Origin: Pseudomonadota bacterium
GTDB taxonomy: Bacteria > Myxococcota_A > UBA796 > SXON01
DNA length: 64,000 nucleotides
Direction of reading: 5' to 3'
NCBI GenBank assembly: GCA_030685065.1
Contig: JAUXQH010000136.1
Span: 62,001 to 126,000 of the forward strand
Below the pieces are notes generated by a model. The model made no database searches. It saw only the letters and a list, made by a program, of their open reading frames with translations, and was not told the DNA's origin. Made by a program: the position numbers and the translations under genes. This document shows positions 13,377 through 35,550 of this stretch, piece by piece; the first letter of the stretch is position 1, and each line of letters starts with the position of its first letter.

Positions 13377-13383
13377 GCGGCCA

Positions 13384-13767
13384 TCAATTGACCGTGTACG
13401 GCTCGGCGAGCGTGAACGGCGCGATCTCCGCGTCGAAGCGCTCGCCCTTCTGCGTCACCATCTGGTAGGCGCCGTGCATCGTCCCCATGGGCGTCGGAAG
13501 CGGGCAACCGCTCGTGTAGTCGAAGCTCTGCCCCGGCTTGAGGACCGGCTGCTCCCCGACGACCCCGGGCCCACGCACTTCTTCGACGCGTCCGGTCGCG
13601 TCGGTGATGATCCAATGCCGGCTCACGAGCTGCACCGTGTCGGCGCCGTCGTTCAGGATCCGCACGTGGTACGCGAACATCCAGAGGCCGCTCCGCGGAT
13701 CGGATTGGTGCTCCAGGTAGTCGGGACGAACCTCGACGCGAATGCCCCGCGTCGTCGCTTCGGACAT
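13384..13767 (-). CDS. apaG: ApaG/CorD family protein
   Basis: 127 residues from ATG 13767 with GGAGGG upstream, the usual ApaG length. The single fibronectin-like domain is recognised from FAYHVRILNDGADTVQLVSRHW, the WIITDATGRVEEVRGPGVVG segment, PVLKPGQSFDYTSGCPL and GTMHGAYQMV. ApaG is linked to cobalt/magnesium tolerance and to diadenosine-tetraphosphate hydrolysis operons in enterobacteria; its molecular action is still unsettled. Here it leads a small minus-strand unit with the TPR and hypothetical genes. Confidence 0.95.
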   Translation of the reverse strand: MSEATTRGIRVEVRPDYLEHQSDPRSGLWMFAYHVRILNDGADTVQLVSRHWIITDATGRVEEVRGPGVVGEQPVLKPGQSFDYTSGCPLPTPMGTMHGAYQMVTQKGERFDAEIAPFTLAEPYTVN

Positions 13768-13962
13768 CGTGTTCCCTCCGTGGCCCGCATAACCCGGGAG
13801 CGCGCCGGAGGTCGCCCGTCGGCGCGACCGCGCGAGCCCGCCGCGCTCACCCTCCGGACGGCCTGCGGCAAGAGGCTCTTTGGGCGCCCCACCCCCGAGT
13901 TCTTGTTAGCTTGCCGCCCCCACGCAGGGCCCGCCGCCCCTCCCCGTGGATTGGAGCCGACC

Positions 13963-18875: not shown

Positions 18876-18879
18876 GCGC

Positions 18880-18901
18880 GGCCGCGCATCAGCGCGCGGC
18901 C
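18880..18901. terminator. Stem-loop between convergent genes
   Basis: GGCCGCGC (18880-18887) pairs perfectly with GCGCGGCC (18894-18901) across a 6-base loop. It fills the 28-nt gap between the stop of lpdA and the stop of the opposing gene, so it could act for both. No T-run follows on either strand. Confidence 0.55.
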
Positions 18902-18903
18902 CC

Positions 18904-20187: not shown

Positions 20188-20295
20188 GGGGAGGCCTCTG
20201 CGCGCCAGCTTAGCGGAACGAGCGCCCGGGCGCCCCTGGGGACCGCGCGGAGCTAAGCGCGGAGTAGGGCCCCGGCGGGGGTCGCGGGCGGCTGG

Positions 20296-22104: not shown

Positions 22105-22407
22105 GGCGGGGATGGTAACAGGTGCGGCTGCCCGGCACGACCTCCGCACTTTGACCCCGACAGACAGGCCGAGGCCTCCTGTGACATCTCCCCGCGCCCG
22201 CGGCGCCGACCCTCCGATTTCTCCCCAGGGTCCGCGCTTTCCCCACAGGGTTGTGCGGCCAACCCTGTCACCGCTCCCCTCCCGCCGTCCGAAAGTGTAA
22301 CAAAGCGCCCACCGAGCCCGACCCCACGATTGCGCCGGACCCACGCCGAAGTTTGCCCGGTAAGCATCCTTACGCTATCCACACGGCCATCTCCCCCGCG
22401 GTGACCA
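22105..22407. other. Divergent intergenic region
   Basis: This 303-bp gap separates the esterase gene (minus) from the VWA lipoprotein gene (plus), so it should hold both promoters. No convincing -35/-10 pair was found. The clear structure is the inverted repeat at 22245-22268, listed separately. Confidence 0.6.
22245..22268. promoter_or_regulatory. Perfect 9-bp inverted repeat, possible operator or hairpin
   Basis: ACAGGGTTG (22245-22253) and CAACCCTGT (22260-22268) are exact reverse complements separated by TGCGGC. The repeat lies about midway between two divergent lipoprotein genes. It could be a regulator site acting on both, or a transcribed stem-loop. Confidence 0.45.
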
Positions 22408-23433
22408 GTGCCCCTCCCGATCCGCCAAGTACCGGTCCTCCTGCTCCCGCTCCTCGTGGGATGCAGCGAATACCAGGCGATCCGCCAGGGCGGCATCGAC
22501 ACGTTCGTGCAGGATCCGGCCGACAAGATCGATGTCCTGATGGTGGTGGACAACTCCTCCTCGATGGAGTCGTACCAATACGAGCTGGGCTCGAATTTCC
22601 AGGCATTCATCTCCTGGTTCGTCGCGGGCAACGTCGACTACCAGATCGCGGTCACCACGACCGACGATGGCAATGACAGCTCCGTGTCCAACCCTGCGCG
22701 TGGGGAGTTCGTCGGGCCGATCATTACCTCCGACATGGAGTTCGAAACCGCGGAGAACCTGTTCCGCGTCGAGGTCAACGTGGGCACGTCCGGCTCCGGC
22801 ATCGAGACGGGCCTCAAGACCGCGTACCTCGCGCTCACGGACACGGAGCGCCTCGGGGACCAGATCTCCGCGTTCCTCCGGGACGACGCCGGCCTCTCCA
22901 TCGTGTTCGTGAGCGACGAGGAGGACAGCTCCCCCTGGCCGGTGAACGACTACGTCAACGCGTTCTTCGAGCTCAAGGGCCATCGCGACCGTGACTCGTT
23001 CAACGCTTCGGCGCTGACCGTCACCGACGAGACGCTCTGCACCGAGCAGCTGGCCGCCTTCAGCTCCCCCGGCACCCGCTACGTGGACGTGGCCGCGCAG
23101 ACCCACGGCCTGACCGGAAACCTGTGTGACTCCGACTTCGCCCAGATCGTGAACGACCTGTCCCTCGCCAACAGCGGCATCACCGACACCTACCCCTTGT
23201 CGCACGAGCCGGACACGGAGACCCTGTCCGTGACCCTCGAGGTCGACGGCGTCGTGACCGAGCTGGCCTGCGACTCCGGAGAGTGGTCGTACCAGCGCAT
23301 CCTGATCTACGAGGCGGACACCCCCGCCATCGTGTTCGACCGAGAGCACCTGCCTCCACCCGGATCGAGCCTGTTCATCCGCTACCTCTACGGGGACGGC
23401 AGCGCCTCTGCCTTCTGCGGCGGTGCATCGTGA
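22408..23433 (+). CDS. von Willebrand factor A domain lipoprotein
   Basis: 341 residues from GTG 22408. The lipobox is LLPLLVGC. The MIDAS motif DNSSSM follows KIDVLMVV near residue 50, as in the VWA protein at 2890-3801, and LSIVFVSDEEDSSPWPVND is the later acidic strand shared by both. The C-terminal part (VTLEVDGVVTELACDSGEW) contains paired Cys residues. It is a surface protein that probably binds a partner through a metal ion. Its stop overlaps the GTG of the Cys-rich lipoprotein gene, so the two are coupled. Confidence 0.85.
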   Translation: MPLPIRQVPVLLLPLLVGCSEYQAIRQGGIDTFVQDPADKIDVLMVVDNSSSMESYQYELGSNFQAFISWFVAGNVDYQIAVTTTDDGNDSSVSNPARGEFVGPIITSDMEFETAENLFRVEVNVGTSGSGIETGLKTAYLALTDTERLGDQISAFLRDDAGLSIVFVSDEEDSSPWPVNDYVNAFFELKGHRDRDSFNASALTVTDETLCTEQLAAFSSPGTRYVDVAAQTHGLTGNLCDSDFAQIVNDLSLANSGITDTYPLSHEPDTETLSVTLEVDGVVTELACDSGEWSYQRILIYEADTPAIVFDREHLPPPGSSLFIRYLYGDGSASAFCGGAS

Positions 23434-24005
23434 GGGCTGTGATCCTCGCCGTCGCGATGTTCCTGCTCGCATCGTGTGCCCCCGCGTACGAGTGCGTCGA
23501 CCTCGGCGACTGTGGCGAGCTGGAGATCTGCGACCTGGGAACGTGCGTGTCCGTCGGCTGTGTCGAGTCCCAGGACTGCGGAATCGACGAGTACTGCGAC
23601 GAGGTCGCGTACACGTGTGACACCGGCTGCGAAACAAACGACGACTGCCTCGCGGGCGAAGATTGCGTCGACGAGACGCACGAGTGCACGGCGTACGGAT
23701 GCCGCTCCACCGCGCTCGATTGTGGCGTCGGGCAACAGTGTGACATCCCCCTGGGCACCTGCTCCGACGTGCCGAGCTGCGAGCCCTGCAGCGGCCCGGG
23801 GAGCACGGAGTGTGGCACCGGCGCCTGCGTCGACTTCGACCTCGACAATGCCGGCGGCGACCACTGCCTCATGCCCTGCCTCGTGGTGGACGATCCCGAA
23901 CAGTGCCCCCGCGGGCTCGAGTGCCGGGACCTGAGCGGCACGGGTGACCTGTACTGCTACGCCGACTGCCCCGCGCTCCTCGAGGAGCTGAACGACGGGT
24001 CGTAG
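23430..24005 (+). CDS. Cys-rich lipoprotein with Dickkopf/EGF-like repeats
   Basis: 191 residues from GTG 23430, overlapping the upstream stop. The signal ends at MFLLASC. The rest has over 30 Cys in repeating units such as CVDLGDCGELEICDLGTC, CGIDEYCDEVAYTC and CETNDDCLAGEDCVDE. Pairs of DC and xxC at regular spacing indicate disulfide-bonded modules like those found in many myxobacterial surface proteins. The product is expected at the outer membrane with the VWA protein; no enzyme motif is present. Confidence 0.8.
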   Translation: MRAVILAVAMFLLASCAPAYECVDLGDCGELEICDLGTCVSVGCVESQDCGIDEYCDEVAYTCDTGCETNDDCLAGEDCVDETHECTAYGCRSTALDCGVGQQCDIPLGTCSDVPSCEPCSGPGSTECGTGACVDFDLDNAGGDHCLMPCLVVDDPEQCPRGLECRDLSGTGDLYCYADCPALLEELNDGS

Positions 24006-24011
24006 GTTCGA

Positions 24012-24035
24012 GCACGCGGCGGGGCACGCGGCGGG
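24012..24035. repeat. 12-bp tandem duplication
   Basis: GCACGCGGCGGG occurs twice without a break (24012-24023 and 24024-24035), followed by a partial third copy. It lies just after the stop of the Cys-rich lipoprotein gene. Confidence 0.85.
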
Positions 24036-24107
24036 GCACGGCCCCCTGACACACGATCGCCCCACGGATGTTGCCGGGAGTGATCGCGCGGACCCCATAC
24101 AGTTACC

Positions 24108-25307
24108 ATGACCGAACATGGAGATCGCGTCACCGCCGAGCGCGAGGGGGTCGACTGCTCGCCGCGTCCGGAGCGAGTGGGGATCCTGGAGATCGGCTCG
24201 CAGACGACCACGCTCGCCCTCTTCCGCACCGGCACGGGAGGGCTGCGGCGCACCGAGCAGATGCGCGTGGCGCTGCCCCTGGTGCGCCACCTCTCCTCGG
24301 AGGGCGAATTGGCGCCGGAGGCAGTGTCCAAGATCGCGCGCGTCGTCGGGAAGCTTGGCCGGTACGCGCGCCGTCGAGGCTGGCGCCGGCTCAAATGTGT
24401 CGCGACGAGCGCGGTCCGCGACGCGGTGAACGCGCTGGACGTGGTCGCCGAGGTCGTCGCACGGTCCGGCTTGATCCTCGAGATCCTCGACGGCCGCGCC
24501 GAGGGCGAGGCCGCCGGCCTCGCGGTGACGAACACCCTGCCCGTCCGGGACGGATGCTTCTTCGACCTGGGGGGTGGCAGCCTGCAGCTCGGACGGCTGC
24601 GGGCCGGACGGTGCCACCGCGTCGAGAGCTTGCCGCTCGGCGCGCTGCGCATGGCGGTTCAGCATCTCGGGCACCATCCGCCCGGGCCAGCGGAGCTCGG
24701 GGCGCTCGAGGATCGCGTGGCGGCGGCCCTGGCGGAGCACCGCTGGGTGCGCGGCGCGCGACAGCTGGTGGGGGTCGGCGGGACGATCCGGGCCCTGGCG
24801 AAGGTGGACCGGCTCGCGAACGGATGGCCCATTCGACACAGCCACGGCTATTGGCTCTCGGCCGATGCCGTTCGAGAGGGCGTGCAGCGCCTCGTCGCGC
24901 TGTCACCGAAGGAGCGCGCCTCCCTCGGCGTGCCGAGACACCGCGTCAACTCGATCCTCGCGGGAGGGCTGATCATTCGCGCGATCCTGCTCGCGGGCGG
25001 GTTCGAGGGGGTGCGTGTCTGCGGGTTCGGCGTGCGCTACGGCGTGGCGCACCAGCTGATGGGAGTGCGGGCACCCGAGCAGGCACACCGGGGCGCGGCC
25101 GAGTGGAGGCTCGCCGTGACGCTCGCGGACCAGCTCCGCGGTAGCGGACGCGCGACGACGGACAGGCTCCTCGGCAAGCCGCTCTCGGGCTGGTACCAGG
25201 AGGAGGCGCTCGCCGCGGCGGCGCTGCTCGGGAACGAGGACGCGGCGCGGGCGATGGACCGGATGGACGTGCTCGCCGGCTGGCGGAGGGCTCGACTCTC
25301 CCACTGA
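24108..25307 (+). CDS. Ppx/GppA-family protein with altered active-site loops
   Basis: 399 residues from ATG 24108. The actin-like fold of exopolyphosphatase/pppGpp phosphatase is clear: GILEIGSQTTTLALF, LKCVATSAVRDAVN, EILDGRAEGEAAGL, FFDLGGGSLQLG and GVGGTIRALAKV. Two positions differ from active members: the first phosphate loop has Glu28 where Asp is usual (DxGS), and the second loop reads GGGSLQ with Gln160 where Glu is usual (GGGSTE). Catalysis may be changed or lost. The family sets polyphosphate and alarmone levels. The gene lies upstream of the unusual response regulator on the same strand. Confidence 0.85.
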   Translation: MTEHGDRVTAEREGVDCSPRPERVGILEIGSQTTTLALFRTGTGGLRRTEQMRVALPLVRHLSSEGELAPEAVSKIARVVGKLGRYARRRGWRRLKCVATSAVRDAVNALDVVAEVVARSGLILEILDGRAEGEAAGLAVTNTLPVRDGCFFDLGGGSLQLGRLRAGRCHRVESLPLGALRMAVQHLGHHPPGPAELGALEDRVAAALAEHRWVRGARQLVGVGGTIRALAKVDRLANGWPIRHSHGYWLSADAVREGVQRLVALSPKERASLGVPRHRVNSILAGGLIIRAILLAGGFEGVRVCGFGVRYGVAHQLMGVRAPEQAHRGAAEWRLAVTLADQLRGSGRATTDRLLGKPLSGWYQEEALAAAALLGNEDAARAMDRMDVLAGWRRARLSH

Positions 25308-25377
25308 CTCAACCGGGAAGGCCACCAGGAATGTCACACCGGCTCGCCAAGACGTTCCCAATCCGACCCGGAGGTGT

Positions 25378-25390
25378 AACCGTGACGGTT
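25378..25390. promoter_or_regulatory. Palindrome before the response regulator gene
   Basis: AACCGTGACGGTT has perfect 6-bp arms around a single G. It ends 12 bases before the ATG of the OmpR-type regulator, at a position that would block transcription or initiation. Autoregulation is an inference. Confidence 0.4.
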
Positions 25391-25402
25391 TAATCTCACG
25401 GG

Positions 25403-26083
25403 ATGACAGCGCGTATCCTGTTGGTCGATGCGGCGAACGCGACGACCCAAGACCTGGCATCCAGACTCCGCGCCGAAGGATTCGTGGTCGACGTCGAATC
25501 CGACGGCGTCACGGCGTTCGAACGCGCCGTGGTGACAGGGTATGGGTGCGTCGTGACCGAGCTCGATCTCCCCGGCGTGTCGGGCCTCGAGTCGGCGCGC
25601 CGCCTGCGCGCCGATCCGCGTACGGCGCGGGTGCCCATCATCGTGATCTCCACGCGGGACGCCGAGATCGACCGCGTGGTGGCGTTCGAGGTGGGCGTCG
25701 ACGACTATGTCGTCAAGCCCTGTTCCTGGCGCGAGCTCGCCCTCCGAATCCTGGCCCGGACCCGGACGCTGAGGGGCCCCCCGCTCGTTCCTCCCCCGTT
25801 CCACTACGCGGGGATGGAATTCGACCTGGCGCGCTTCCGCGTCTCCCTGGAGGGGGCCGCGCTGGCCCTGACCGTCACGGAAGTGGCGCTCCTGTTGGCG
25901 CTCGTACGCGGCCAGGGAGCGGTGGTGTCGCGGGAGTCGCTGTTGCGGGACGTGTGGGGCCTCCCGAGCGGGGATGAGAGCCGCGTGGTCAAGGCCTCGG
26001 TCAGCCGGCTCCGCGAGAAGCTCGGGAGCGTGGGACATCGGCTGGAAAACGTGCGCGGCGCCGGGTACCGGCTCCCGCCGTAG
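25403..26083 (+). CDS. OmpR/PhoB-type response regulator with atypical receiver
   Basis: 226 residues from ATG 25403. The receiver domain (1-115) ends in VVKPCSW with the conserved Lys105, and the winged-helix DNA-binding domain (130-226) has LTVTEVALLLALVRGQGAVVSR and NVRGAGYRL. At the phosphorylation site the strand reads VVTELDLPGVSG, which puts Glu53 where Asp is required, and the acidic pair at the start reads VDA (Asp9-Ala10) instead of two acids. Normal phosphorylation is unlikely; Glu can mimic phospho-Asp, so the protein may be active without a kinase. No histidine kinase gene is near. Confidence 0.9.
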   Translation: MTARILLVDAANATTQDLASRLRAEGFVVDVESDGVTAFERAVVTGYGCVVTELDLPGVSGLESARRLRADPRTARVPIIVISTRDAEIDRVVAFEVGVDDYVVKPCSWRELALRILARTRTLRGPPLVPPPFHYAGMEFDLARFRVSLEGAALALTVTEVALLLALVRGQGAVVSRESLLRDVWGLPSGDESRVVKASVSRLREKLGSVGHRLENVRGAGYRLPP

Positions 26084-26120
26084 GCCGGGTCCCGGCGGTC
26101 CCATGGGGATCGACCCGCCA

Positions 26121-29100
26121 TCACGGTTGCCAGGTCAGCCCGAGGCTCGCCGCCCACCCCGAGCGCGCGCTCTCGCTGATGTTGTCCCCCACCTTCTGGA
26201 TGGAGGGCCAGTCGAGCAGGTTGGAGCCCTTGACACGGGCCGTCCAGTGCTTGCCGATGCCCTGGGACCACACCAGATCGACGCGGTGCACCGGCATCTC
26301 GTAGGTGTCGGGGATGCCGGAGGTGCCGACGTCCACGATGCGAGGACCAAAGGCGTTGTAGAGGAGCGACACGGACAGGCGCAGGTCGGGATTTTCGTAG
26401 CTGATCTGGGCGTTGGCCACCCAGGGGGACTGCCCCTGTAGCGGGCGACGGTCCGAGGTCTGGTTGCCCTCGGTGTCCGAGAGGTCCACCTGTGAGGCGA
26501 TGAACGAGACGTTTCCGCTCACGTAGAGGTCGGCCAGCCAGGGGTGGATGCGGTCGAGACGTTGGCGCGCGTCCAGCTCGGCGCCCACGTTGGTCGCGCT
26601 CGTGGCATTGGCGAAGGTCCCCACGCTCCCCGACACCGCGCTCACCGCGACCACCGACTCGATCGGGTGGTCGAAGTACTTGAAGAACGCGCCCACCGAC
26701 ACGCTCTCGCCTTCCCGCGGATACCACTCCCAGCGCGCGTCGACGTTCTCGATCGTGGCTCGATGGAGATCGGGGTTGCCATAGAGCGTGCGCCCGGTGC
26801 GGTAGTCGTAGTATTGGACCTCGGTGAGCTCGCGGAACTCGGGCCGAGAGAGGGTCCTGCCGTAGCCCGCGCGCACGAGCATCTGGTCCGGCTCCGCCTT
26901 CTTGCCGATCGCATAGGTGACCATGACGGCGGGCAGGAAATCGCTCGAGCCGAGGTCGGCGACGACGGGCTCCTTGCTGGTGTCGAACTGCTCGAAGGTG
27001 ATGACGGACTGGACCGAGCGCTCGAAGCGCACGCCCGCGAGGGTACGGAGCCGCTCGGTCCACACAACGTCGGCCATCCCGTAGGCGGCGTAGAGCTCCT
27101 GGCCGGCCTCGTAATCGTCGGAGTTGATCGTGTTCTCTTCGATCTGGAGGTAACCGCCGTCGCCCTCGCCCTCCTCGCCGATGTTCTCGGGGACGACCAA
27201 CTCCTCGATGGGCGCCCCAAGGTCGAGGCCGTCGGTGCCGTGGAACTGGAAGCCGAAGCGGCGGGTGCCCGAGTCGCGGGCCCGCGTGGCCCGGGCACCG
27301 CCGACCTTCAGCGCCGTGCCCGCCCGGGGCCAGGGGAGCGGCACGGTCACGTCGACGCCGCCGTCCCGCATCACGTCCCGGAGCGCGAGGTACTGGATGT
27401 CGCTCCAGCTCCCGCGTTGGGAGAGCACGTAGGCGCCCTCTTCGGTCCGGAGGTAGTTCCACTCACGACGATCCGGCTCGAGGCGGGACGCGACGGCGGT
27501 GGCGTAGCGGCCCTCTACCTTCACCACCTTCAGATCCACCTCGGCGGCGATCTGCTCGAAGAGGAGCTGCTGCTCGACCCAGGAGCTGCGCTCGCTCCGG
27601 GTGTCGCTGCTGCCAGTGGGGTCGTCGGCGTCGTAGCGCAGGCCGGTCGCGACGCTGGTGCGGTTCAGGAGCGTGGTCGAGGTGACCTTCACCACGTCCT
27701 TCCACTCCGCGCCGAGGGCCAGCGCCCCGCCGAGGCGCACCTGGTTCTCGGTGCTGGTGAAGGTGGTGCGACGGCTCTCCACCAGGCCCTCCGCGCCGCT
27801 GGCGTAGACGGAGCGGACGCCGTCGTCGACGTCCCAACCGTTCTGGTACACGGCGCCGAGGAGGCCGCCGAGCGAGAGGTCGCCGAAGCGGACGCGGCCG
27901 CCGGCGTTGAGGGTGGCGCCGAAGTCGGGGGGGAGGTCGCGGGCGGAGAGCCCCCACCGGTTCGGAATGAGCTCGCCCAGGGTCTCGAGCTCCTCGGGCG
28001 TGTAGCCCCCCTCGGAGAAGCGGCCGGCGGGCTTGATGGCCTCCGCTTCGCTGGCGGCGTCGAGCTCCTCGGGGAGCGCGCGGAAGTCCGTGCCGAACCC
28101 GAGCCAGTCCGTGGGCCCCGGCGCTCCCACGATGCCGGTGCCGAAGGAGGTCCCCGACGCGTAGGTCCCGGACACCCCGAGGTTGAAGAGCGGCTTCTCG
28201 GGCACTCCTCGGGTGATCACCTCGACCACGCCCCCCCCGAACTCGGCCGGACGATCGGGGGAGAACGTCTTCTGGATCACCACCTGCTCGATCAGCGAGG
28301 CCGGGAAGATGTCGAGCGGGACGACGCGCTTCTCGGGCTCCGGGCTCGGGAGCGACGAGCCGTTCAGCAGCGTCGCCGAGTAGCGATCGCCCAGGCCGCG
28401 GACGTAGACGTACTTGCCGCCGACGACGGTCAAGCCGGTGACGCGCTTGAGCGCGGAGGCGGCGTCGCTGTCGCCGGACTTGCTCATCTGCTCGGCGCCG
28501 AGGATGTCCGACACCGTGCTCGCCTCCCGACGCTCGTCGAGCACCGAGGCGGTGCCGCCGACGATGCGGGGGGCGTTGATCGTGAAGTCGGAGAGCTGGA
28601 GGCCGGTCTTCTCCATCGACACGGCGACGCTCACCTGGTCGTTGGCGACGACGGTCGCCGTCACGGCGCCGGTCGCGTAGCCGGGGCGCACCAGGGAGAG
28701 GTCCCACGGCCCCTCCGGGAGGGTCAGCGTGAAGGTGCCGTCCGCGCCGGTGGTCGCGGAGCCGTCGGATCCTCGGACGAACACGCGCACCGCGGCGAGC
28801 GGGGCGCCCGTAGCGGGGTCGATGACGCGCCCCGTCAAGCGGCCGGCCGGGCCGGTGCGGGCCTCGGCGGCGGCCGTGGTCGGCGGCGCCTCCAGGCTCA
28901 CGCGCGCCGGCGGACCGATGGTGACGAGCACCTCCGTCGCCTGGCCGGCGACGACGGGCACGTGCTCGACGCGCGCCGTCGGAGCTGCAGCAACGGCCGC
29001 GCCGATCTCGACCACCACCTCGCCCGGGGGGAGATCGAGGTGCCAGGCGCCAGCGCCGTCGGTGTGCGTGACCTGGTCCGCGACGCGCACCTCGACGCCC

Positions 29101-29216
29101 GCGAGCGGCGCGCCATCGGGGGAGAACACCACTCCCCCCACCGCCCCGAGGGGCTCCGCGAAGGCCGCCTGGGTGAAGAAGACCAGTGTGGTGAAGACCA
29201 GAGTAGACAGGATCAC
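26121..29216 (-). CDS. TonB-dependent outer-membrane receptor with carboxypeptidase-like N-domains
   Basis: 1031 residues from GTG 29216, which overlaps the stop of the TPR gene (GTGA). A signal peptide ends in TQAAFA. Two carboxypeptidase-regulatory-like domains (about 24-95 and 130-215; GAVGGVVFSPDGAPLAGVEV, LTGRVIDPATGAPLAAVRV) precede the plug (SDILGAEQMSKSGDSDAASA, YVYVRGLGDRYSATLLNG) and a 22-strand-type barrel that runs to the end (LGLTWQP). It imports or handles a large ligand using TonB energy. It is the last of eight genes in the TonB operon, and the only receptor in it. The ligand is unknown. Confidence 0.93.
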   Translation of the reverse strand: MILSTLVFTTLVFFTQAAFAEPLGAVGGVVFSPDGAPLAGVEVRVADQVTHTDGAGAWHLDLPPGEVVVEIGAAVAAAPTARVEHVPVVAGQATEVLVTIGPPARVSLEAPPTTAAAEARTGPAGRLTGRVIDPATGAPLAAVRVFVRGSDGSATTGADGTFTLTLPEGPWDLSLVRPGYATGAVTATVVANDQVSVAVSMEKTGLQLSDFTINAPRIVGGTASVLDERREASTVSDILGAEQMSKSGDSDAASALKRVTGLTVVGGKYVYVRGLGDRYSATLLNGSSLPSPEPEKRVVPLDIFPASLIEQVVIQKTFSPDRPAEFGGGVVEVITRGVPEKPLFNLGVSGTYASGTSFGTGIVGAPGPTDWLGFGTDFRALPEELDAASEAEAIKPAGRFSEGGYTPEELETLGELIPNRWGLSARDLPPDFGATLNAGGRVRFGDLSLGGLLGAVYQNGWDVDDGVRSVYASGAEGLVESRRTTFTSTENQVRLGGALALGAEWKDVVKVTSTTLLNRTSVATGLRYDADDPTGSSDTRSERSSWVEQQLLFEQIAAEVDLKVVKVEGRYATAVASRLEPDRREWNYLRTEEGAYVLSQRGSWSDIQYLALRDVMRDGGVDVTVPLPWPRAGTALKVGGARATRARDSGTRRFGFQFHGTDGLDLGAPIEELVVPENIGEEGEGDGGYLQIEENTINSDDYEAGQELYAAYGMADVVWTERLRTLAGVRFERSVQSVITFEQFDTSKEPVVADLGSSDFLPAVMVTYAIGKKAEPDQMLVRAGYGRTLSRPEFRELTEVQYYDYRTGRTLYGNPDLHRATIENVDARWEWYPREGESVSVGAFFKYFDHPIESVVAVSAVSGSVGTFANATSATNVGAELDARQRLDRIHPWLADLYVSGNVSFIASQVDLSDTEGNQTSDRRPLQGQSPWVANAQISYENPDLRLSVSLLYNAFGPRIVDVGTSGIPDTYEMPVHRVDLVWSQGIGKHWTARVKGSNLLDWPSIQKVGDNISESARSGWAASLGLTWQP

Positions 29217-30358
29217 AGGCAGCCTCCCCCGCGCTCGCACGCCGCCATCGCCTCGCGCAGCTCGGTGGCCCGACGGAAGGCCGCCGGCTCCCGGATGTCG
29301 CGGAGCCAGCGCTCGGCGTGGGCATGCTCGCCGAGCCGGAACCAGCTGTAGGCGAGCCCGTACGCGATGCCGTCGTCCTTCGTGAGCCCGGCGCGCACCA
29401 GGCGCGGCTCCAGCGCGACGGCGCGCTCCCACCCCTGCTCCTCGATGAGCAGGCCGAGCCGTTGGCGGGCCTTCGCGGCGGGGTCGGCCACCTGGCCGTT
29501 CATCCGCAGCGCGGCGTCGAGGTCGCCCCCGCGCCGGTACGCCTCGGCCGCCTCGAGCGCGAGGGCCGAATCGAGGATGGTCGCGCGCTCGAGGAAGCGG
29601 CCGGCGTTGCGGGGCTGGGCGTCGTCCAGGGACGCGCGGGCCGCCTGGACGAGCAGATCGCGGTCCTCCCCCTCCTCGAGCAGCGCCGCCTCCAGGATGG
29701 TGAGGGCCTCGCGCGTCTCGCCGCCCCGGCGGAGCGCCTCCGAGATGGCGACGGCGTCATCCGCGTCGGCGTCGGGGCGGGCGAGCAGCGCCTCGCCACG
29801 CGCGCGGGCTTCGCGGAACAGGCCGAGTCGAACGAGCAGGAACACCTGCTGGCGGCGGAGCTCGGGCTGGTCCGGGAAGCGCTCCGCCCCCGCGTCGAGC
29901 GCCGACCAGGCGTCATCCGTGCGCCCGGCGGCCTCGCACGCGGAAGCGCGCAGGAGCCAGGTGCCGGGGAGGCTCGCCCCCACATCGCCCGCCCGCTCCA
30001 GGGCGGCGAGCGCCTCGTCCGGCACCTCGGCGGCGAGGAGCGCTCGCGCCAGGTGGAGCTCCAGGAGCTCGCGCCCCTCGGTCGCGGTGGCGAGGGCCGC
30101 CCGAAAGGACGTGGCGGCCTCGGCGGCGCGCCGCTCGTGCAGCTCCACCAGGCCGCGCAGGGTCCAGTAGCGTGGCAGATCCACGCCCTTCGCCTTGGTG
30201 TCGACCGCGGCGATCGCGGTGGCCGCGCGCTCCCACTCGCCCTCGCGGACGAGGAGTCCGGCCAGCGAGACACCATCCTCCTGCTCGGCGGGGCGCTTGC
30301 GGGGGGCGGCGTAGGCCACGGAGAGGCCGATCAACGCGATCAGGAGGAAGCGTCGCAT
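29213..30358 (-). CDS. Periplasmic TPR protein of the TonB operon
   Basis: 381 residues from ATG 30358, two bases after the tonB stop. A signal peptide (MRRFLLIALIGLSVAYA) is followed by about eight TPR-like helical pairs (YWTLRGLVELHERRAAEAAT, LLELHLARALLAAEVPDEAL, TWLLRASACEAAGRTDDAWS, and others). A TPR protein occupies the same place in Vibrio TonB2 clusters. It may scaffold the ExbB-ExbD-TonB complex or contact the receptor encoded next. The C-terminus has two Cys (ACERGGGCL). Confidence 0.85.
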   Translation of the reverse strand: MRRFLLIALIGLSVAYAAPRKRPAEQEDGVSLAGLLVREGEWERAATAIAAVDTKAKGVDLPRYWTLRGLVELHERRAAEAATSFRAALATATEGRELLELHLARALLAAEVPDEALAALERAGDVGASLPGTWLLRASACEAAGRTDDAWSALDAGAERFPDQPELRRQQVFLLVRLGLFREARARGEALLARPDADADDAVAISEALRRGGETREALTILEAALLEEGEDRDLLVQAARASLDDAQPRNAGRFLERATILDSALALEAAEAYRRGGDLDAALRMNGQVADPAAKARQRLGLLIEEQGWERAVALEPRLVRAGLTKDDGIAYGLAYSWFRLGEHAHAERWLRDIREPAAFRRATELREAMAACERGGGCL

Positions 30359-30360
30359 CG

Positions 30361-31005
30361 TCACTGCAGCTCGAAGCGGAGGGTCTGGCGGACGCGGACG
30401 GCGACGGGGTTGCCCTGGTGCCGACCCGGATCGAAGCGCCACTCGCGCACCGCGGCGACCGCGGCGTCGTCGAACACGCCGGGCGGGTCCGACTCGACCA
30501 CGTGGACATCCTGGCTGGTGCCGTCCACGTCAACCACGAAGGAGAGGGTCACGTGCCCCGCCTGGCCGAGGGCGCGGGCCCGCGCCGGAAAGGTGGGCGC
30601 GACGCGCTCGGTGGGCGTGGGGGGCTCCTGCACGGCGTCCTCCTCCATGACCGCGGTGCCGACGTCGTCGACGAGGGCCTGGGTGGCCTGGGAGAGGGCG
30701 GCGTCGGCGGCGTCTCCGAGCCCGAAGTCGAGGCCGGAGAGGTTAGCGGCGAGCAGCGGCGAGGGCGAGGGCGCCGAGCGGGCGGTCTTGCGGGGCGTGG
30801 GCGCGCGGCGCTGGCGTGACTTTGCGGCCGCCTTGGGCGTCGGCCCGACCGCCAGCTCCTCGATCACGCTCACGGGCTCGAGCACTTTCTTCTCCACCTG
30901 GGCGTTCATCCCGAGCGAGAGGCCGATGACCCCGACGGTGCCGAGGATCGCCACCACGAGCGAACCCAGGTGCCGGAAGATGCTGTGCCTGACGATGCTA
31001 CCCAT
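30361..31005 (-). CDS. tonB: TonB family energy-transducing protein
   Basis: 214 residues from ATG 31005, overlapping exbD by 8 nt. It has an N-terminal membrane helix (LGSLVVAILGTVGVIGLSLG), a Lys/Arg/Pro-containing spacer and a C-terminal TonB domain (residues ~130-214): VAPTFPARARALGQAGHVTL, SFVVDVDGTSQDVHVVESDP and AAVAAVREWRFDPGRHQGNP. The spacer is short, as in TonB2 proteins. The protein carries proton-motive energy from ExbB/ExbD to the receptor encoded two genes downstream. Confidence 0.93.
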   Translation of the reverse strand: MGSIVRHSIFRHLGSLVVAILGTVGVIGLSLGMNAQVEKKVLEPVSVIEELAVGPTPKAAAKSRQRRAPTPRKTARSAPSPSPLLAANLSGLDFGLGDAADAALSQATQALVDDVGTAVMEEDAVQEPPTPTERVAPTFPARARALGQAGHVTLSFVVDVDGTSQDVHVVESDPPGVFDDAAVAAVREWRFDPGRHQGNPVAVRVRQTLRFELQ

Positions 31006-31402
31006 CCTCGATGTCCGTCACCACGCCGATGTCCTTGGCGCCCGCCAGCCGGCACTGGTCGACCACCTCGACCAGCTTCTCGGCGGACACGCGCCGGTCC
31101 GTGACGACGAGGACCGTCTTGTCCCCCGCGGTCCCGAGCGCGTCCCGCACCCGCGATTGGAGCATCCACGGGCGCACCGGCGCCTCGTTCACGTAGATGT
31201 TCAGCGAACGATCGATGAACACGCGCAGCGCCTTGCTGCTCGCCGGGGTGGCGCTCTTCGCGCCCGGCCGCTCGATCTGGAGCTCGGCGTCCTTCGCGAA
31301 GGTGGTCGTGACCATGAAGAAGATCAGGAGCACGAGGATGCAGTCGATGAGCGGCACCACGTCGATGTGGGGATCCTGGTGCTCCGCGTGACGACGCCTC
31401 AT
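30998..31402 (-). CDS. exbD: ExbD/TolR family biopolymer transport protein
   Basis: 134 residues from ATG 31402, which overlaps the exbB stop (ATGA). One membrane helix carries the proton-binding Asp in HIDVVPLIDCILVLLIFFMV (near residue 20). The periplasmic domain follows (LRVFIDRSLNIYVNEAPVRP, KTVLVVTDRRVSAEKLVEVV). It forms the proton channel with the ExbB proteins encoded upstream. Confidence 0.94.
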   Translation of the reverse strand: MRRRHAEHQDPHIDVVPLIDCILVLLIFFMVTTTFAKDAELQIERPGAKSATPASSKALRVFIDRSLNIYVNEAPVRPWMLQSRVRDALGTAGDKTVLVVTDRRVSAEKLVEVVDQCRLAGAKDIGVVTDIEDG

Positions 31403-32031
31403 CGGGTCGCCTGCGCTGGAGCCTGGCGGGCGCCGCCGAGTACGGCCTTGAGCTCCTCGAGCTCGCCGGCGAGCCGGGTCTGCCGCTGCCGGAGGAACCC
31501 GCTCATGAGCAGGCCGGGGACCGCGATGGCGAGGCCCATCTGGGTGGCGTAGAGCGCCTCCACGATGCCGCCGGCGATGCCCTCCGACGCGGCGGACGTG
31601 GAGGACGTGCCGAGCGAGCCGAAGGTCCCGATGAGCCCGGTGACGGTGCCGAGGAGGCCGAGCAGCGGCGCCATGGCGACGAGGCAGGTGACCAGGCGTG
31701 TGCCGAAGTTCAGACGGAGCTCGAGCTCTCCGAGCGCCTCGTCGAGGAGCGGCAGGGGGACCGGGCCGCCCTGCTCCCGCCACAGGCGCGCGCCGCGGAC
31801 GACGGCGGTGTCGATCACCCCCCGCTCCGCGACCGGCCGGCCGGTCCTCGACGCTCCGGCCAGCGCGGCGTCGACGAGCACCCGCACCGGGCGCGCATCG
31901 CCGCGGCGGAGGAGGAACAGCCGCTCGCCCATCGCAAACCACAACACGAACGCGGTGGCGAAGAGGCCCGGCATCACGACGCCGCCGCCGGACCAGAGGT
32001 CGTAGACCAGGAAGGCCAGGCGCTCAATCAT
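31399..32031 (-). CDS. exbB: ExbB/MotA-TolQ family proton channel protein (short)
   Basis: 210 residues from ATG 32031, chosen over an in-frame upstream ATG at 32055 because it overlaps the preceding gene by only 8 nt. Three membrane segments are seen, with the TolQ/ExbB signature VTCLVAMAPLLGLLGTVTGL and a later YATQMGLAIAVPGLLMSG. It is the channel subunit proper, equivalent to Vibrio ExbB2. The long ExbB homologue encoded just upstream makes this a two-ExbB system. Confidence 0.92.
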   Translation of the reverse strand: MIERLAFLVYDLWSGGGVVMPGLFATAFVLWFAMGERLFLLRRGDARPVRVLVDAALAGASRTGRPVAERGVIDTAVVRGARLWREQGGPVPLPLLDEALGELELRLNFGTRLVTCLVAMAPLLGLLGTVTGLIGTFGSLGTSSTSAASEGIAGGIVEALYATQMGLAIAVPGLLMSGFLRQRQTRLAGELEELKAVLGGARQAPAQATR

Positions 32032-33388
32032 CGGCCGCCCCCGCCGACCGGGCACGGAGCGCGGGAGGAGCGTCCACGCGTGACTCCTCGTCCAGGAGCC
32101 GGGCGGCCTGGTCGAGCGCGTTCACCATCGCGAGCGAGGCTCGCTCGATCGTGTTCTTGATGCTGTCCGCGACGCTGGCGAGCACGTTGCCGGCGAGCAG
32201 CGTGGGGATCGCGACGGCAAGGCCCAGGGCCGTGCACACCAGGGCCTCCGCGATGCCCGCCGACATCAGCTTGGGGTTCCCGGTGCCGTGCTCGGTGATG
32301 ACGTCGAAGGTGGCGATCATGCCGGTGACGGTCCCGAGGAGCCCGAGGAGCGGCGAGCCGGCGGTGATGACGACGAGCGCGGAGGCGAAGCGATCCACGC
32401 CCGGAGTCTCGAGCAGGATCGCCTCGTCGACCACCCGCGCAAGCTCCTCGGGGGGACGATCCCCGGCGCCGAGGATGGCGCGCAACACCCGTGCGAGCGG
32501 CCCCCCGCGGCGGGCCAGGAGCCCGTGCGCGAGGTCGCTGCGCCCGGCCCGCACGTGCCGGTTCACCGCGTCCACCAGCGGCTGCCCGCCGCGCCGCGCG
32601 AACAGGAGGGTGATGCCGCGCACGACCACGAGCGTGGCGCTGAGGACGCCGAGGCCGAAGAGCACCTGCCCCATCGTCCCCGCCTCGTTGAGCAGCTCCC
32701 CGAGGCCGCCCTGCTTCTCGGCCTCCTCCGCGCCCCGCTCGGCCTCGAAGAGCTGGAGCTCGAGCGACTTCGGCGCCACCGCTCCGCTCAGCGCGGCGGC
32801 GGTCGCGCGGCCGAACTCCTGCCGGAGCTGCATGCGCCCCTCGCCCGCGGGTGCCAGCGCGCCGCTGGCCGCCGGGGACGCGCCCCAGGCCCCGATCTGG
32901 CCGAGCGCGTACACCCTTCCCGAGACCTGCTCTCCGCCCGGGAGAAAGAACTCTCCGTCGCGCCAGCCCGTGAACGCGGCGCCCTCCACCTGGCCCGCGG
33001 CGGCATCGAACACGGACGGCAAGGCGACGGCCGGATCGTCGGGAGCCGGCATCTCCAGGGTCTCGGCGGCCTGCCGGAGGGTCGTGTCGAGGAGCGCCTC
33101 GGCGTCGTCCATCGTGCTGGCCTCGCGCTCGAGCGCGTCGAAGTCGTCCTCCGCGCGATCCGCCCGCCGGCCCGTCGCGACGAGCTTCGCCTGGAGATCG
33201 GCGAGCTCTTCGTCGGCAGCGGCGATCCGCTCGGCGGAGTCCCGCTCCACCTCGGCCACGCGGCCCGCGAGCTCCTGCTTCTCCGCGAGCAGGTAGGCGT
33301 ACTCCTTCTGGTAGGCCGCCTCCAGCGTCCCCGAGGGGGCGGCGGGAGCGTCCTGCGCGAGGGTGAGACCAGCGAACAACAGGATCAT
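32024..33388 (-). CDS. Long ExbB/TtpC-like protein with periplasmic coiled coil
   Basis: 454 residues from ATG 33388, overlapping the DUF3450 gene (ATGA). A signal peptide (MILLFAGLTLAQ) and a coiled coil (about 30-110; YAYLLAEKQELAGRVAEVER) precede a beta-rich stretch and then a MotA/TolQ/ExbB domain from about residue 250, with the signature LVVITAGSPLLGLLGTVTGM. This is the architecture of TtpC, an additional ExbB-like subunit needed by Vibrio TonB2 systems. It probably extends the complex into the periplasm. Confidence 0.88.
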   Translation of the reverse strand: MILLFAGLTLAQDAPAAPSGTLEAAYQKEYAYLLAEKQELAGRVAEVERDSAERIAAADEELADLQAKLVATGRRADRAEDDFDALEREASTMDDAEALLDTTLRQAAETLEMPAPDDPAVALPSVFDAAAGQVEGAAFTGWRDGEFFLPGGEQVSGRVYALGQIGAWGASPAASGALAPAGEGRMQLRQEFGRATAAALSGAVAPKSLELQLFEAERGAEEAEKQGGLGELLNEAGTMGQVLFGLGVLSATLVVVRGITLLFARRGGQPLVDAVNRHVRAGRSDLAHGLLARRGGPLARVLRAILGAGDRPPEELARVVDEAILLETPGVDRFASALVVITAGSPLLGLLGTVTGMIATFDVITEHGTGNPKLMSAGIAEALVCTALGLAVAIPTLLAGNVLASVADSIKNTIERASLAMVNALDQAARLLDEESRVDAPPALRARSAGAADD

Positions 33389-34140
33389 GGCGCACCCCCG
33401 GCGTACGGGTTCGGAAGCGTGAAGGCCCCCGTGCGGACCCCGTGTTTGAGCTTGTCGAACAGGACCCCGACCGCCTTTTCGTCCTCCCGGTCTTCGAGGC
33501 GGGTCCACTGCCACCCGCCGCCGCCCCGGGTGACCATGCCGACCACGCCGCCTTCCGTGCGGAAGTACAGCGCCACCATGCCGAGCCGCGCCACGTCGGC
33601 GAGCACCTCGGCGCCGTCCACCGACACGACCTGGCGGTCCAGCCCGTTCTCCCGGGCCAGCCGCAGCTCGTCCTCCGTGAAAGCCCAGAGCCGTGCCGCC
33701 GCGGCCTCGGGCGTGAGGCTCGCCGTCGCGAGCTGGGAGGAGAGCGTGTCCATCTCCGCGAGGCGATCCGGAAGATGGAAGGGCAACCCCGCGGCCACCA
33801 CCGCCCGCATGCGGGCGATCGCGGCCTGTACGGCGAGCGCGAGGTCCGCGCCCCGCGTCGCGTGGCTCGTGAGCTCCGCGCGCCGCGCCTCCGCTTCGCC
33901 GGCCACTTGGGCCAGCCGCAGCTCCTCCCGGCGGATCTGCACCTCGATCTCCACCTTCTGCGCCTCGATGGCGCGGAGGCGCCCCCGGGCGTCCTCCTTC
34001 TCTTCCCCCAGCTCCGTCGAGAGGGTCTCCACCTCGCGGCGGAGCCGAGCAAGCGCCTCGGCGCGGGAGTCGGCCGGGGCCTCGGCCCACGCGCTCGACA
34101 GGAGCGCGCTGGCAAAGAAGACAAGAAGGGCGCGTGTCAT
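33385..34140 (-). CDS. DUF3450 family periplasmic coiled-coil protein
   Basis: 251 residues from ATG 34140. A signal peptide ends at SSAWA. A long coiled coil (about 25-100; ALARLRREVETLSTELGEEK, AQKVEIEVQIRREELRLAQV) is followed by a compact C-terminal domain (VVSVDGAEVLADVARLGMVA, LYFRTEGGVVGMVTRGG). DUF3450 genes regularly sit immediately before TtpC/ExbB genes in TonB2-type clusters. It may be a structural partner of the long ExbB protein, whose coiled coil faces the same compartment. Confidence 0.88.
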   Translation of the reverse strand: MTRALLVFFASALLSSAWAEAPADSRAEALARLRREVETLSTELGEEKEDARGRLRAIEAQKVEIEVQIRREELRLAQVAGEAEARRAELTSHATRGADLALAVQAAIARMRAVVAAGLPFHLPDRLAEMDTLSSQLATASLTPEAAAARLWAFTEDELRLARENGLDRQVVSVDGAEVLADVARLGMVALYFRTEGGVVGMVTRGGGGWQWTRLEDREDEKAVGVLFDKLKHGVRTGAFTLPNPYAGGAP

Positions 34141-34146
34141 GTCTGC

Positions 34147-35550
34147 TTAGTCCACGTCGTGGTGGGTCCAGCCGGCCGTCCAGTCCGTCGTCCCGTCCAT
34201 CGCGCCGACGTAGGTGGCGGCATCGAAGAACGCGTCGGCCGGAGCCGCGCCGCCGGTGAGCAGCGGCGAGCCGCTCGTCGGCTTGAAGTCGGGCGCCGCG
34301 ATGTTCCACGCGTCCCCCAGCATCAGGTCGCTGACGGTGCGGTTGTTCGCGCCGGCGGCGTCGAAGATGTCCTCCTCGGTGCCGGTCTCCGTCTCGGTGC
34401 CCTCCTCGAAGGGCAGGTCGCACGCGACCACGCTGTTCGTGATCGAGGTGGTGCCGTCGGTGTAGTAGTCGTACGTGGCCTGGTCACGCACCGCGATGCA
34501 CGCGGTGGAGAAGCCGGCGATGGCGATGTTGCTGAGCGTGGGCGCGAAGCCGCGGCGCAACAGCATGCCGAAGTTGGACTCCACGAGCGCCTCGTCCCCG
34601 ATGAAGGTGACATTGGCCATCGTCGGCGTGGTGCCCGGGATGGCGGTGTGCACGTCGGGGTTGTTGTCCGCCTCCATCCCGTTGTTTCCGGTGCCGCCGC
34701 CCTGCTGGACCACCGCGAATTGGATCTTGCCCTGGTACCCGAGATCGAAATCGATCCCGTCGTCGCCGGGAGAGGTGCAGACGAGGTGCTTCAGCGTGGC
34801 CGCGCCGCCCCAGAACTCGATGCAATCGTCGAGGGTCTGGTGCACCTGGATGTAGTCGAGCGTCGTCCCGCTGCCGGCGCCCTGCATGCTGATGCCGTTG
34901 ATCTCGTTGTCGGGGCTCACCTCGGTGCCGCCGAACTCGACGATGACGTACCGCAGCGAACCGCTGTTGTCGGCCAGATCGTCTCCGCCGTAGGTGCCGG
35001 TGTTGCCCTCGCCCTCGGCCTCGCAGGGGGTGGTGCCGTCCGTGCAGGAGTTGATCGGCGCGCGCCCGTTGATGACCAACCCGCCCCAGTCGCCGCGGGC
35101 GCGTGAGCCCTCGAGCTGGTCGGAGGTGAAGACGATGGGCGCGGCCGCCGTGCCGTTCGCAAAGATCTTGGAGCCGCGGCGGATGATGAGCACGGCGTCC
35201 GTGGACGCCTCGCCGTAGATCTGGGTCCCAGGCTCGATCTCGAGGATCGTCTCGTTGGTGTCGTCCCCGATCAGCACGCCGCTGCGGAGCAACCAGGGCT
35301 TGTCGGCGGTGAGCCGCATGCTGGCGGTGTACTCGCCGGAGAGCAGGCAGGCGCCGCCCTCGTCGACACACGCAGCCGCCGGAATGTCACTCCCGGTGTC
35401 CGTATCGGTGTCCGTGTCGGTGTCGGTGTCCGTGTCGGTGTCGGTGTCCGTGTCGGCGTCGGACTCGCCGGTGTCGGTATCCTTGGGGTCCTCTCCCGTG
35501 CAGCCGAGGAGGAGGATCGGAAGAAACACAGGCAGAAGGCGGAGCCGCAT
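34147..35550 (-). CDS. Stalked lipoprotein with right-handed beta-helix-like domain
   Basis: 467 residues from ATG 35550. The lipobox is LPILLLGC. An Asp-Thr repeat stalk (residues ~24-52) carries a large domain rich in short beta strands and Asn/Asp/Gly turns: LLRSGVLIGDDTNETILEIE, VLIIRRGSKIFANGTAAAP, IVFTSDQLEGSRARGDWGGL, RYVIVEFGGTE, TLKHLVCTSPGDDGIDFDLG and MANVTFIGDEALVES. The pattern fits a parallel beta-helix, a fold common in polysaccharide-binding and surface proteins. It opens the TonB operon and ends six bases before the DUF3450 gene, so it may be the cargo or a surface partner of the receptor. Confidence 0.8.
   Translation of the reverse strand: MRLRLLPVFLPILLLGCTGEDPKDTDTGESDADTDTDTDTDTDTDTDTDTDTGSDIPAAACVDEGGACLLSGEYTASMRLTADKPWLLRSGVLIGDDTNETILEIEPGTQIYGEASTDAVLIIRRGSKIFANGTAAAPIVFTSDQLEGSRARGDWGGLVINGRAPINSCTDGTTPCEAEGEGNTGTYGGDDLADNSGSLRYVIVEFGGTEVSPDNEINGISMQGAGSGTTLDYIQVHQTLDDCIEFWGGAATLKHLVCTSPGDDGIDFDLGYQGKIQFAVVQQGGGTGNNGMEADNNPDVHTAIPGTTPTMANVTFIGDEALVESNFGMLLRRGFAPTLSNIAIAGFSTACIAVRDQATYDYYTDGTTSITNSVVACDLPFEEGTETETGTEEDIFDAAGANNRTVSDLMLGDAWNIAAPDFKPTSGSPLLTGGAAPADAFFDAATYVGAMDGTTDWTAGWTHHDVD
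35395..35460. repeat. Hexanucleotide-type repeat encoding an Asp-Thr stalk
   Basis: A near-perfect (GTGTCC/GTGTCG)n array on the + strand encodes Asp-Thr pairs in the lipoprotein of the TonB operon. It is the most regular of the three such arrays in the window. Length change by slippage would stay in frame. Confidence 0.88.

Follow-up and report, generated by a model that had tools for sequence, protein, structure and literature searches.

An eight-gene TonB2-type operon uniting an ElpS-type lipoprotein, its receptor and a Ttp motor, with a probable role in phosphorus acquisition

Gene content and order of the operon

The window, by which we mean the whole 64,000-nucleotide stretch of DNA that was analysed, carries on its minus strand, from position 26121 to 35550, a run of eight intact ORFs in the order lipoprotein, DUF3450 protein (TtpB), long ExbB (TtpC), ExbB, ExbD, TonB, TPR protein (TtpD) and TonB-dependent receptor (TBDR) (Table 1). 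An earlier note on this DNA had described this order and the tight spacing of neighbouring genes, with gaps of 2-6 bases or overlaps of 4-8 bases, and both are borne out by the ORFs and the Pfam matches. When the eight-gene set was sought in other genomes, as that note had envisaged, all eight genes were found together at 21 further loci. With 22 loci including the window holding the complete set, the cluster exceeds chance, and it joins already known parts into one unit.

Table 1. Genes of the operon and its flank, with the junction between each operon gene and the next
Feature	Position	Strand	Evidence and remarks	Junction with next gene (bases)
ElpS-type lipoprotein (by homology)	34147..35550	-	Signal peptide, lipobox, stalk, right-handed beta-helix; AlphaFold; cross-phylum homologues	Gap 6
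DUF3450 protein (TtpB-type)	33385..34140	-	Pfam PF11932 E 1e-23	Overlap 4
Long ExbB with N-terminal extension (TtpC-type)	32024..33388	-	PF01618 E 3e-26; position and length match Vibrio TonB2 core	Overlap 8
ExbB proton-channel subunit	31399..32031	-	PF01618 E 8e-22	Overlap 4
ExbD with transmembrane Asp in PLIDCILVLLIFFMV segment	30998..31402	-	PF02472 E 7e-26	Overlap 8
TonB	30361..31005	-	PF03544 (TonB_C) E 4e-22	Gap 2
TPR protein (TtpD-type)	29213..30358	-	TPR_14 E 4e-10; order as Vibrio ttpD2 (PMC6957404)	Overlap 4
TBDR	26121..29216	-	Pfam barrel E 3e-25, Plug 8.5e-10, two CarboxypepD_reg stretches; start codon GTG at 29216	
OmpR/PhoB-like response regulator	25403..26083	+	Tail-to-tail with TBDR; outside operon	
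Ppx/GppA phosphatase family gene	24108..25307	+	PF02541 E 4e-34; putative phosphate link; flanks operon	

The six middle genes correspond to ttpB-ttpC-exbB-exbD-tonB-ttpD in the order of the Vibrio TonB2 cluster, which upholds the earlier claim of a TonB2-type core. Iron/Fur control is a trait of Vibrio TonB2 and not of TonB3, and no Fur-like site was found upstream of the window operon (p 0.47), with no enrichment of such sites in relatives either; the core is therefore classed as TonB2-type solely on the genes it contains. Vibrio TonB2 transport cannot proceed without TtpB2 and TtpD2, a need for all six proteins has been demonstrated only in Vibrio vulnificus, and the substrate of TonB3 is not known.

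The lipoprotein and its receptor

The lipobox of the lipoprotein reads LLGC, with the cysteine at position 17, and is followed by an Asp-Thr stalk of ~30 residues (about residues 24-52), disordered in the AlphaFold model, and by a predicted right-handed beta-helix (about residues 60-467; mean pLDDT 90.4). Relatives likewise have a lipobox and linkers of variable length. Across 46 sequences from several phyla, the acidic helix residues D241, D242, E245, D263, D264, D267 and E293 are invariant and D295 is nearly so, and this acidic face is perhaps a candidate metal-phosphate site. Single-domain homologues in Caulobacterales, at loci where the lipoprotein and TBDR genes are followed by gsp in the ElpS/CC_0171 layout, share 35-40% identity with the window lipoprotein, a figure that refers to these homologues and not to the CC_0170 sequence itself. 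Beta-helix homology, a lipoprotein signal with a linker, and an adjoining TBDR of the matching subfamily are all present, and on sequence grounds we assign the window lipoprotein to the ElpS/FI-type family of surface lipoproteins. As its homologue ElpS of Caulobacter is exposed at the cell surface by proteinase K evidence (PMC2996285), a surface location is favoured for the window lipoprotein as well.

No Pfam or NCBIfam model matched the lipoprotein, no PDB entry matched it by sequence, and a fold search of the PDB returned nothing significant (best E 1.7e-3, TM about 0.3). The weak resemblances in that search were to glycan-active beta-helix enzymes and tailspikes, and a polygalacturonase-like model has been put forward for the FI and FII lipoproteins of Flavobacterium johnsoniae (PMC8115612). 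Both would suit a SusCD-like glycan-uptake pair, with the beta-helix as a binding protein resembling a polysaccharide lyase or hydrolase. We consider such a pair improbable, as the fold matches fall short of significance and as gene linkage and regulation favour phosphate.

The receptor comprises a signal helix, TTR/CarboxypepD-like domains at residues 24-109 and 124-200, a disordered TonB-box linker (about residues 205-220, DFTINAP), and then the plug and beta-barrel. The solved folds closest to its AlphaFold model (pLDDT 88) are TonB-dependent transporters, heme and siderophore receptors among them, and its score against the SusC/RagA model was 34 bits, below the cut-off of 368. In profile comparisons, the lipoprotein-partnered TBDRs form a distinct subfamily, scoring at least 395 bits against their own profile, while other TBDRs in the same genomes score at most 44.

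Distribution and pairing of the genes

Homologues of the lipoprotein occur in 106 of the 237 genomes of the phylum and, across the genome collection, in no fewer than 592 stretches. Among 80 loci retrieved by lipoprotein sequence, 68 have a TBDR nearby on the same strand, and at lipoprotein-TBDR loci the energy core lies between the two genes, lies after them or is absent. Because the two genes co-occur so often despite the varying core, and because the TBDRs form their own subfamily, the lipoprotein and receptor are taken as the constant unit; the pair recurs in many phyla and lineages, also without the core. The proposal of a dedicated, complete machine has gained ground, in that the order is kept in relatives and the source genome has a single DUF3450 gene, the operon's own, against 14 Plug domains. 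Comparison of lipoprotein and receptor divergence, another check envisaged earlier, points the same way, with lipoprotein distances tracking TBDR distances best (r 0.78).

The lipoprotein itself had been proposed as either a cargo or a surface partner of this machine, and the surface exposure of ElpS now favours the partner. As a cargo, the lipoprotein or its beta-helix would be moved by the TBDR and motor onto the outer face or else be released from the cell, comparable to Oar and PopC. The strict pairing of the two genes whatever their order would fit this role, as would the arrival of ElpS at the surface without the T2SS, by a route that is not known (PMC2996285), and the requirement of PopC secretion in Myxococcus xanthus for a TBDT with a Ton system (PMC6434023). 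Nevertheless, we think it unlikely, since the receptor, whose TonB box and plug are normal, looks like TBDRs that act in import, and since ElpS is still produced after cc0171 deletion (production, not location, was reported). Surface lipoproteins that partner TBDRs are, moreover, common in import, SusD being an example.

Links to phosphate

While the first reading identified the TonB2 core and proposed the machine, it missed the core-less pairs in many lineages and the phosphate-starvation identity of the family (ElpS, FI/FII). ElpS is induced by Pi starvation (PMC2996285), and the FI and FII lipoproteins and TBDTs of F. johnsoniae are induced by Pi depletion only and not by iron, with FI, at 18.7% of the exoproteome under Pi depletion, being the most abundant phosphate-starvation exoprotein (PMC8115612). 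Counting against a phosphate reading, cc0171 expression in Caulobacter is reported to be constitutive, and intracellular phosphate in the Caulobacter study had no detectable change between media.

In 20 of 120 lipoprotein stretches (12/80 and 8/40), PhoR, Pst or PhoU genes lie within about 10 kb, most lipoprotein loci having no Pho gene at that distance, compared with 0/39 control TBDR stretches (39 clean stretches, another having been dropped for overlap with a lipoprotein locus). Some Poribacteria ABC ATPases first read as PstB are actually UgpC/MalK-like and were left out of the counts. Pho-box-like repeats were found upstream of 22 of 50 lipoprotein-first loci and of 1 of 39 controls, and in Alteromonas macleodii a single run reads phoB-phoR-pstS-2OG oxygenase-lipoprotein-TBDR-DUF3450-ExbB-ExbB-ExbD-TonB-TPR. 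These data also bear on the idea of a general TonB2-type operon for iron, siderophore or heme uptake, which could be read from a core order identical to that of Vibrio TonB2, a siderophore importer, and from the heme and siderophore receptors among the nearest solved receptor folds, though the latter is true of any TBDR. Fur-like sites, however, are not enriched (2/50 lipoprotein-first loci versus 7/39 controls) whereas Pho genes and Pho-box-like sites are, and the F. johnsoniae homologues do not answer to iron; we regard this idea as very improbable.

Upstream of the window operon a Pho box was not significant (p 0.15), and none was evident upstream in the four eight-gene relatives nearest to it. 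The top NCBIfam model for the flanking regulator is PhoB, at 142 bits below the cut-off of 296. As the search for a Pho box came up empty and the neighbouring regulator is no more than PhoB-like, the phosphate link in the window itself is one that we infer. Several relatives have a similar regulator in divergent orientation upstream of the lipoprotein gene, and PstB of the source genome is encoded on another contig. The neighbouring SelO and Ppx/GppA genes were rejected as functional partners, as they are not kept beside the operon in relatives (40 stretches, queried for these two genes).

Proposed function

We propose that the operon probably encodes a TonB-powered outer-membrane machine for phosphorus acquisition. 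The lipid-anchored beta-helix protein, on its flexible acidic stalk, would capture an extracellular phosphorus-containing substrate, or help to release it, working together with its partner TBDR. The dedicated TtpB-TtpC-ExbB-ExbD-TonB-TtpD motor would open the receptor, which would take phosphate, a phosphate ester or a fragment of a phosphate-bearing polymer into the periplasm, from where it would go to the Pst system or phosphatases. A glycan reading could be compatible with this machine if the substrate were a phosphate-bearing glycan. The proposal draws on the gene content, order, conservation, receptor subfamily and folds described here and on the Pho-gene neighbourhood and Pho-box-like sites of relatives, and, from the literature on homologues, on Pi-starvation induction, ElpS surface exposure and the essentiality of TtpB2 and TtpD2; from these we infer the import direction, the substrate, the lipoprotein-receptor contact and Pho control in the host organism. 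Whether a self-contained phosphorus transporter, in which a beta-helix protein unlike solved structures joins a TBDR of its own and a motor of six proteins, extends from Myxococcota to Alteromonas is a bolder proposition, possible but doubtful.

By coupling an ElpS-type lipoprotein with a single receptor and a complete TonB motor, the operon suggests a role in powered outer-membrane transport for a family one of whose members is so abundant under phosphate starvation in F. johnsoniae, yet of which the window lipoprotein lacks a curated Pfam or NCBIfam model. The Ttp motor gains a candidate non-iron role; no Ttp system linked with phosphate turned up in a literature search. If true, the bolder proposition would provide a TonB-driven outer-membrane route for phosphate or phosphate polymers, where porin diffusion is usually assumed.

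Comparison with known systems

The SusCD and PusCD systems of Bacteroidota are similar in that a surface lipoprotein and a TBDT form a functional pair. SusD and PusD are helical proteins, whereas the window lipoprotein is a predicted beta-helix with no SusD match in Pfam, and together with the sub-threshold SusC/RagA score of its receptor this places the operon outside SusCD. Oar with Ton-oar of M. xanthus is likewise a Myxococcota TBDT with its own TonB, ExbB and ExbD genes, but it acts in PopC secretion and no DUF3450/TtpC/TPR core is described for it (PMC6434023).

ElpS (CC_0170) and the TBDR CC_0171 of Caulobacter crescentus represent the same lipoprotein family with an adjoining TBDR, a gene co-occurrence already remarked by the authors of that study (PMC2996285); their locus differs in being followed by a T2SS cluster and in being without the TtpB/C/D-ExbBD-TonB core. 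In F. johnsoniae, Fjoh_3856/3857 and Fjoh_0546/0545 also place an ElpS-related lipoprotein beside a TBDT, are induced by Pi depletion and, for FII, lie in the phoBR cluster (PMC8115612), but no Ttp core is described in the FI and FII clusters, which have other Pi-responsive enzymes nearby. Vibrio TonB2 and TonB3 share the six core genes and their order with the window operon, and a receptor gene heads the TonB3 cluster (PMC6957404). Several siderophores are served by Vibrio TonB2, for which a beta-helix lipoprotein has not been described, whereas in the window the core sits between the lipoprotein and receptor genes.

Anatomy and conservation of the eight-gene operon

The TonB2-type operon that the earlier note described as dedicated to one receptor and one stalked beta-helix lipoprotein is established as real, with good conservation: all eight ORFs are intact and co-directional, and Pfam assigned the gene types as DUF3450, two MotA/ExbB proteins of 454 and 210 aa, ExbD, TonB_C, TPR, and a TonB-dependent receptor (TBDR) with two CarboxypepD_reg stretches. 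The first gene encodes a 467 aa lipoprotein with the lipobox LLGC followed by an Asp-Thr stalk, for which Pfam, NCBIfam, and a PDB sequence search returned no match. The junctions, in order, measure +6, -4, -8, -4, -8, +2, and -4 bases, a spacing that has, at the sequence level, the pattern of a single translationally coupled transcript.

Coordinates of the window operon and of related clusters
Feature	Sequence	Coordinates	Content
Window operon	window	35550 to 26121, minus strand	lipoprotein, DUF3450 (TtpB), long ExbB (TtpC), ExbB, ExbD, TonB, TPR (TtpD), TBDR
Doubled lipoprotein, eight-gene Myxococcota cluster	L066	4403-7051	domain doubled within one frame
Myxococcus xanthus cluster	L126	1514-8355	tonB-exbB-exbD-exbD-TBDR-lipoprotein
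Alteromonas macleodii 239-kb plasmid	NZ_OX359244.1 (L210)	13222-32409	phoB-phoR-pstS and all eight genes

Within the phylum, the lipoprotein is present in 106 of 237 genomes, although a few of the weakest matches cover the stalk only. The comparison with relatives suggested by the earlier note found all eight genes, order unchanged, in 15 of 40 stretches fetched around these matches, some of the remainder being cut by contig ends, and the 15 come from distantly placed families of the phylum. In five stretches (L034-L038), all of the window's own taxonomic family, lipoprotein and TBDR adjoin without the six-gene core, and further phylum stretches are ordered ExbB/ExbD, TBDR, lipoprotein. A scan of a named genome collection yielded at least 592 lipoprotein relatives, of which 80 were kept for locus comparison, spanning Myxococcota, Poribacteria, Acidobacteria, Gemmatimonadota, Bacteroidota, and Alpha- and Gammaproteobacteria. 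A same-strand TBDR lies close by in 68 of the 80, many of the other 12 sitting near contig ends. The core lies between, after, or before the lipoprotein-TBDR pair, or is absent, and the complete set occurs at 22 distinct loci, window counted.

Several individual loci deserve mention. The lipoprotein domain occurs two or three times per chain (~900-1360 aa) in L096, L104, L210, and other Alpha- and Gammaproteobacteria. A gammaproteobacterial Methylothermaceae MAG (L102) has the Myxococcota-type order lipoprotein-core-TBDR, suggesting horizontal transfer or a binning error. A stretch filed as a Klebsiella pneumoniae MAG (L077) matches G225:C84, from a genome of the window's own family, in length (14931) and gene content, and its label looks wrong. 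Myxococcus xanthus has three clusters in which TBDT genes are accompanied by a complete Ton system, and the L126 cluster may be one of them; MXAN_0821, a TBDT from one of those three, is reported to be apparently essential.

The lipoprotein and its receptor

The lipoprotein is predicted to be a right-handed beta-helix (mean pLDDT 90.4) with residues 1 to ~51 disordered. No PDB fold matched the model with E < 0.001, and the best matches, at TM ~0.3, were phage tailspikes and glycan-active beta-helices; that lipoprotein and TBDR form a glycan pair nevertheless strikes us as quite unlikely. D241, D242, E245, D263, D264, D267, and E293 are identical in 46/46 lipoprotein sequences and D295 in 44/46, and the way these residues are spaced over successive coils suggests that they form one acidic face. 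Stalk composition differs freely among lineages (DT repeats, Gly-rich, Asp-rich, Pro-Thr), as would be expected of a spacer, and Caulobacter ElpS is cleaved in the corresponding linker (PMC2996285).

Every partner TBDR scores at least 395 bits to one profile, versus at most 44 bits for other TBDRs of the same genomes (leaving aside a control at 597 bits that is itself the L103 pair), and the partners therefore form a dedicated subfamily. Over the 22 eight-gene loci, pairwise lipoprotein distances follow TBDR distances most closely (correlation 0.78, versus 0.39-0.66 for core proteins), and TBDR distances correlate at 0.80-0.86 with DUF3450, TtpC, TonB, and TPR. That the lipoprotein is itself cargo we regard as unlikely. 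In the predicted TBDR structure, a pair of TTR-like domains is joined by a disordered linker carrying the TonB box (DFTINAP; DFTVTAP, DFVVTAP, or EEVVATG in aligned relatives) to plug and barrel, and its best fold matches are all TonB-dependent transporters.

Domain counts for the window's genome are 14 for Plug and ten for TonB_C against a single DUF3450, so position links this motor to one receptor. Four large ORFs of this genome (contigs C20, C76, C96, and C101) each carry TonB_C and Plug domains, i.e., TonB fused to TBDR, the architecture of the MxcH model for the myxochelin receptor.

Linkage to phosphate genes

Linkage to Pho genes is established in relatives. Clustering of the remaining neighbour genes yielded PhoB, PhoR, PstB, PstC/A, PstS, and PhoU, with NCBIfam hits above curated cut-offs for PhoB, PhoR, and PstS in Alteromonas, PstB and PhoU in a gammaproteobacterium, and PstC in Pontibacter. 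Some PstB calls proved false and were dropped after NCBIfam counts over all members. At fixed thresholds, PhoR/Pst/PhoU genes occur in 12/80 and 8/40 lipoprotein stretches (one contig common to both sets) versus 0/39 usable control TBDR stretches, taken from genomes with a lipoprotein-TBDR pair. Judged against Markov shuffles, significant Pho-box-like direct repeats lie upstream of 22/50 lipoprotein-first loci versus 1/39 controls, and Fur-like sites upstream of 2/50 versus 7/39; iron uptake as the operon's role is a distinctly improbable reading.

Alteromonas macleodii plasmid pBGP9 joins the full eight-gene set to phoBR, its annotated order, in a single direction, being phoB, phoR, phosphate-binding protein, 2OG oxygenase, 'hypothetical protein', TBDR, DUF3450, ExbB, ExbB, ExbD, TonB, TPR; the 'hypothetical protein' (~1356 aa) belongs to the lipoprotein family, with the domain repeated. 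No Pho box was found upstream of the window operon, and its adjoining regulator resembles PhoB at a score below the NCBIfam cut-off (142 bits versus 296).

The operon is probably a Pho-linked, TonB-powered outer-membrane machine handling a phosphorus source. The stalked lipoprotein would capture or process this source and pass it on to the TBDR, which the dedicated Ttp-ExbBD-TonB motor would open. Here we infer the substrate, the direction, the lipoprotein-TBDR contact, and, in the window's organism, phosphate control of the operon.

Comparison with known systems

By sequence, the window lipoprotein belongs to the ElpS/FI family. Caulobacter ElpS (CC_0170) is a surface-exposed lipoprotein induced by phosphate starvation, and its gene adjoins TBDR CC_0171 and T2SS gsp genes; the same paper records that the genes for ElpS and CC_0171 co-occur (PMC2996285). 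The Caulobacter PhoB regulon has TBDRs among its members (PMC11208175). In the order including Maricaulis, 34/41 genomes have the lipoprotein, and each of eight single-domain homologues (35-40% identity to the window lipoprotein) has a partner-type TBDR as neighbour; for seven, the stretch also contains gsp genes. The pair adjoins gsp genes in alphaproteobacterial stretches L105, L109, L115, L135, L137, and L202-L209. In Flavobacterium johnsoniae, the FI/FII lipoproteins Fjoh_3856/Fjoh_0546 and TBDTs Fjoh_3857/Fjoh_0545 respond to Pi depletion only, FII is placed inside the phoBR cluster, and FI is the most abundant exoprotein (PMC8115612).

The match of the core to Vibrio TonB2 was confirmed: Vibrio vulnificus ttpB2-ttpC2-exbB2-exbD2-tonB2-ttpD2 has the same order as the six middle genes, so the core is not new, and TonB2 function there needs both TtpB2 (DUF3450) and TtpD2 (TPR) (PMC6957404). 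The related Vibrio TonB3 operon starts with a receptor gene and apparently does not serve iron transport (PMC6957404). A literature search covering open-licence papers found none describing the eight genes as a unit; the ElpS/FI pairs and the Ttp core are already known, each separately.
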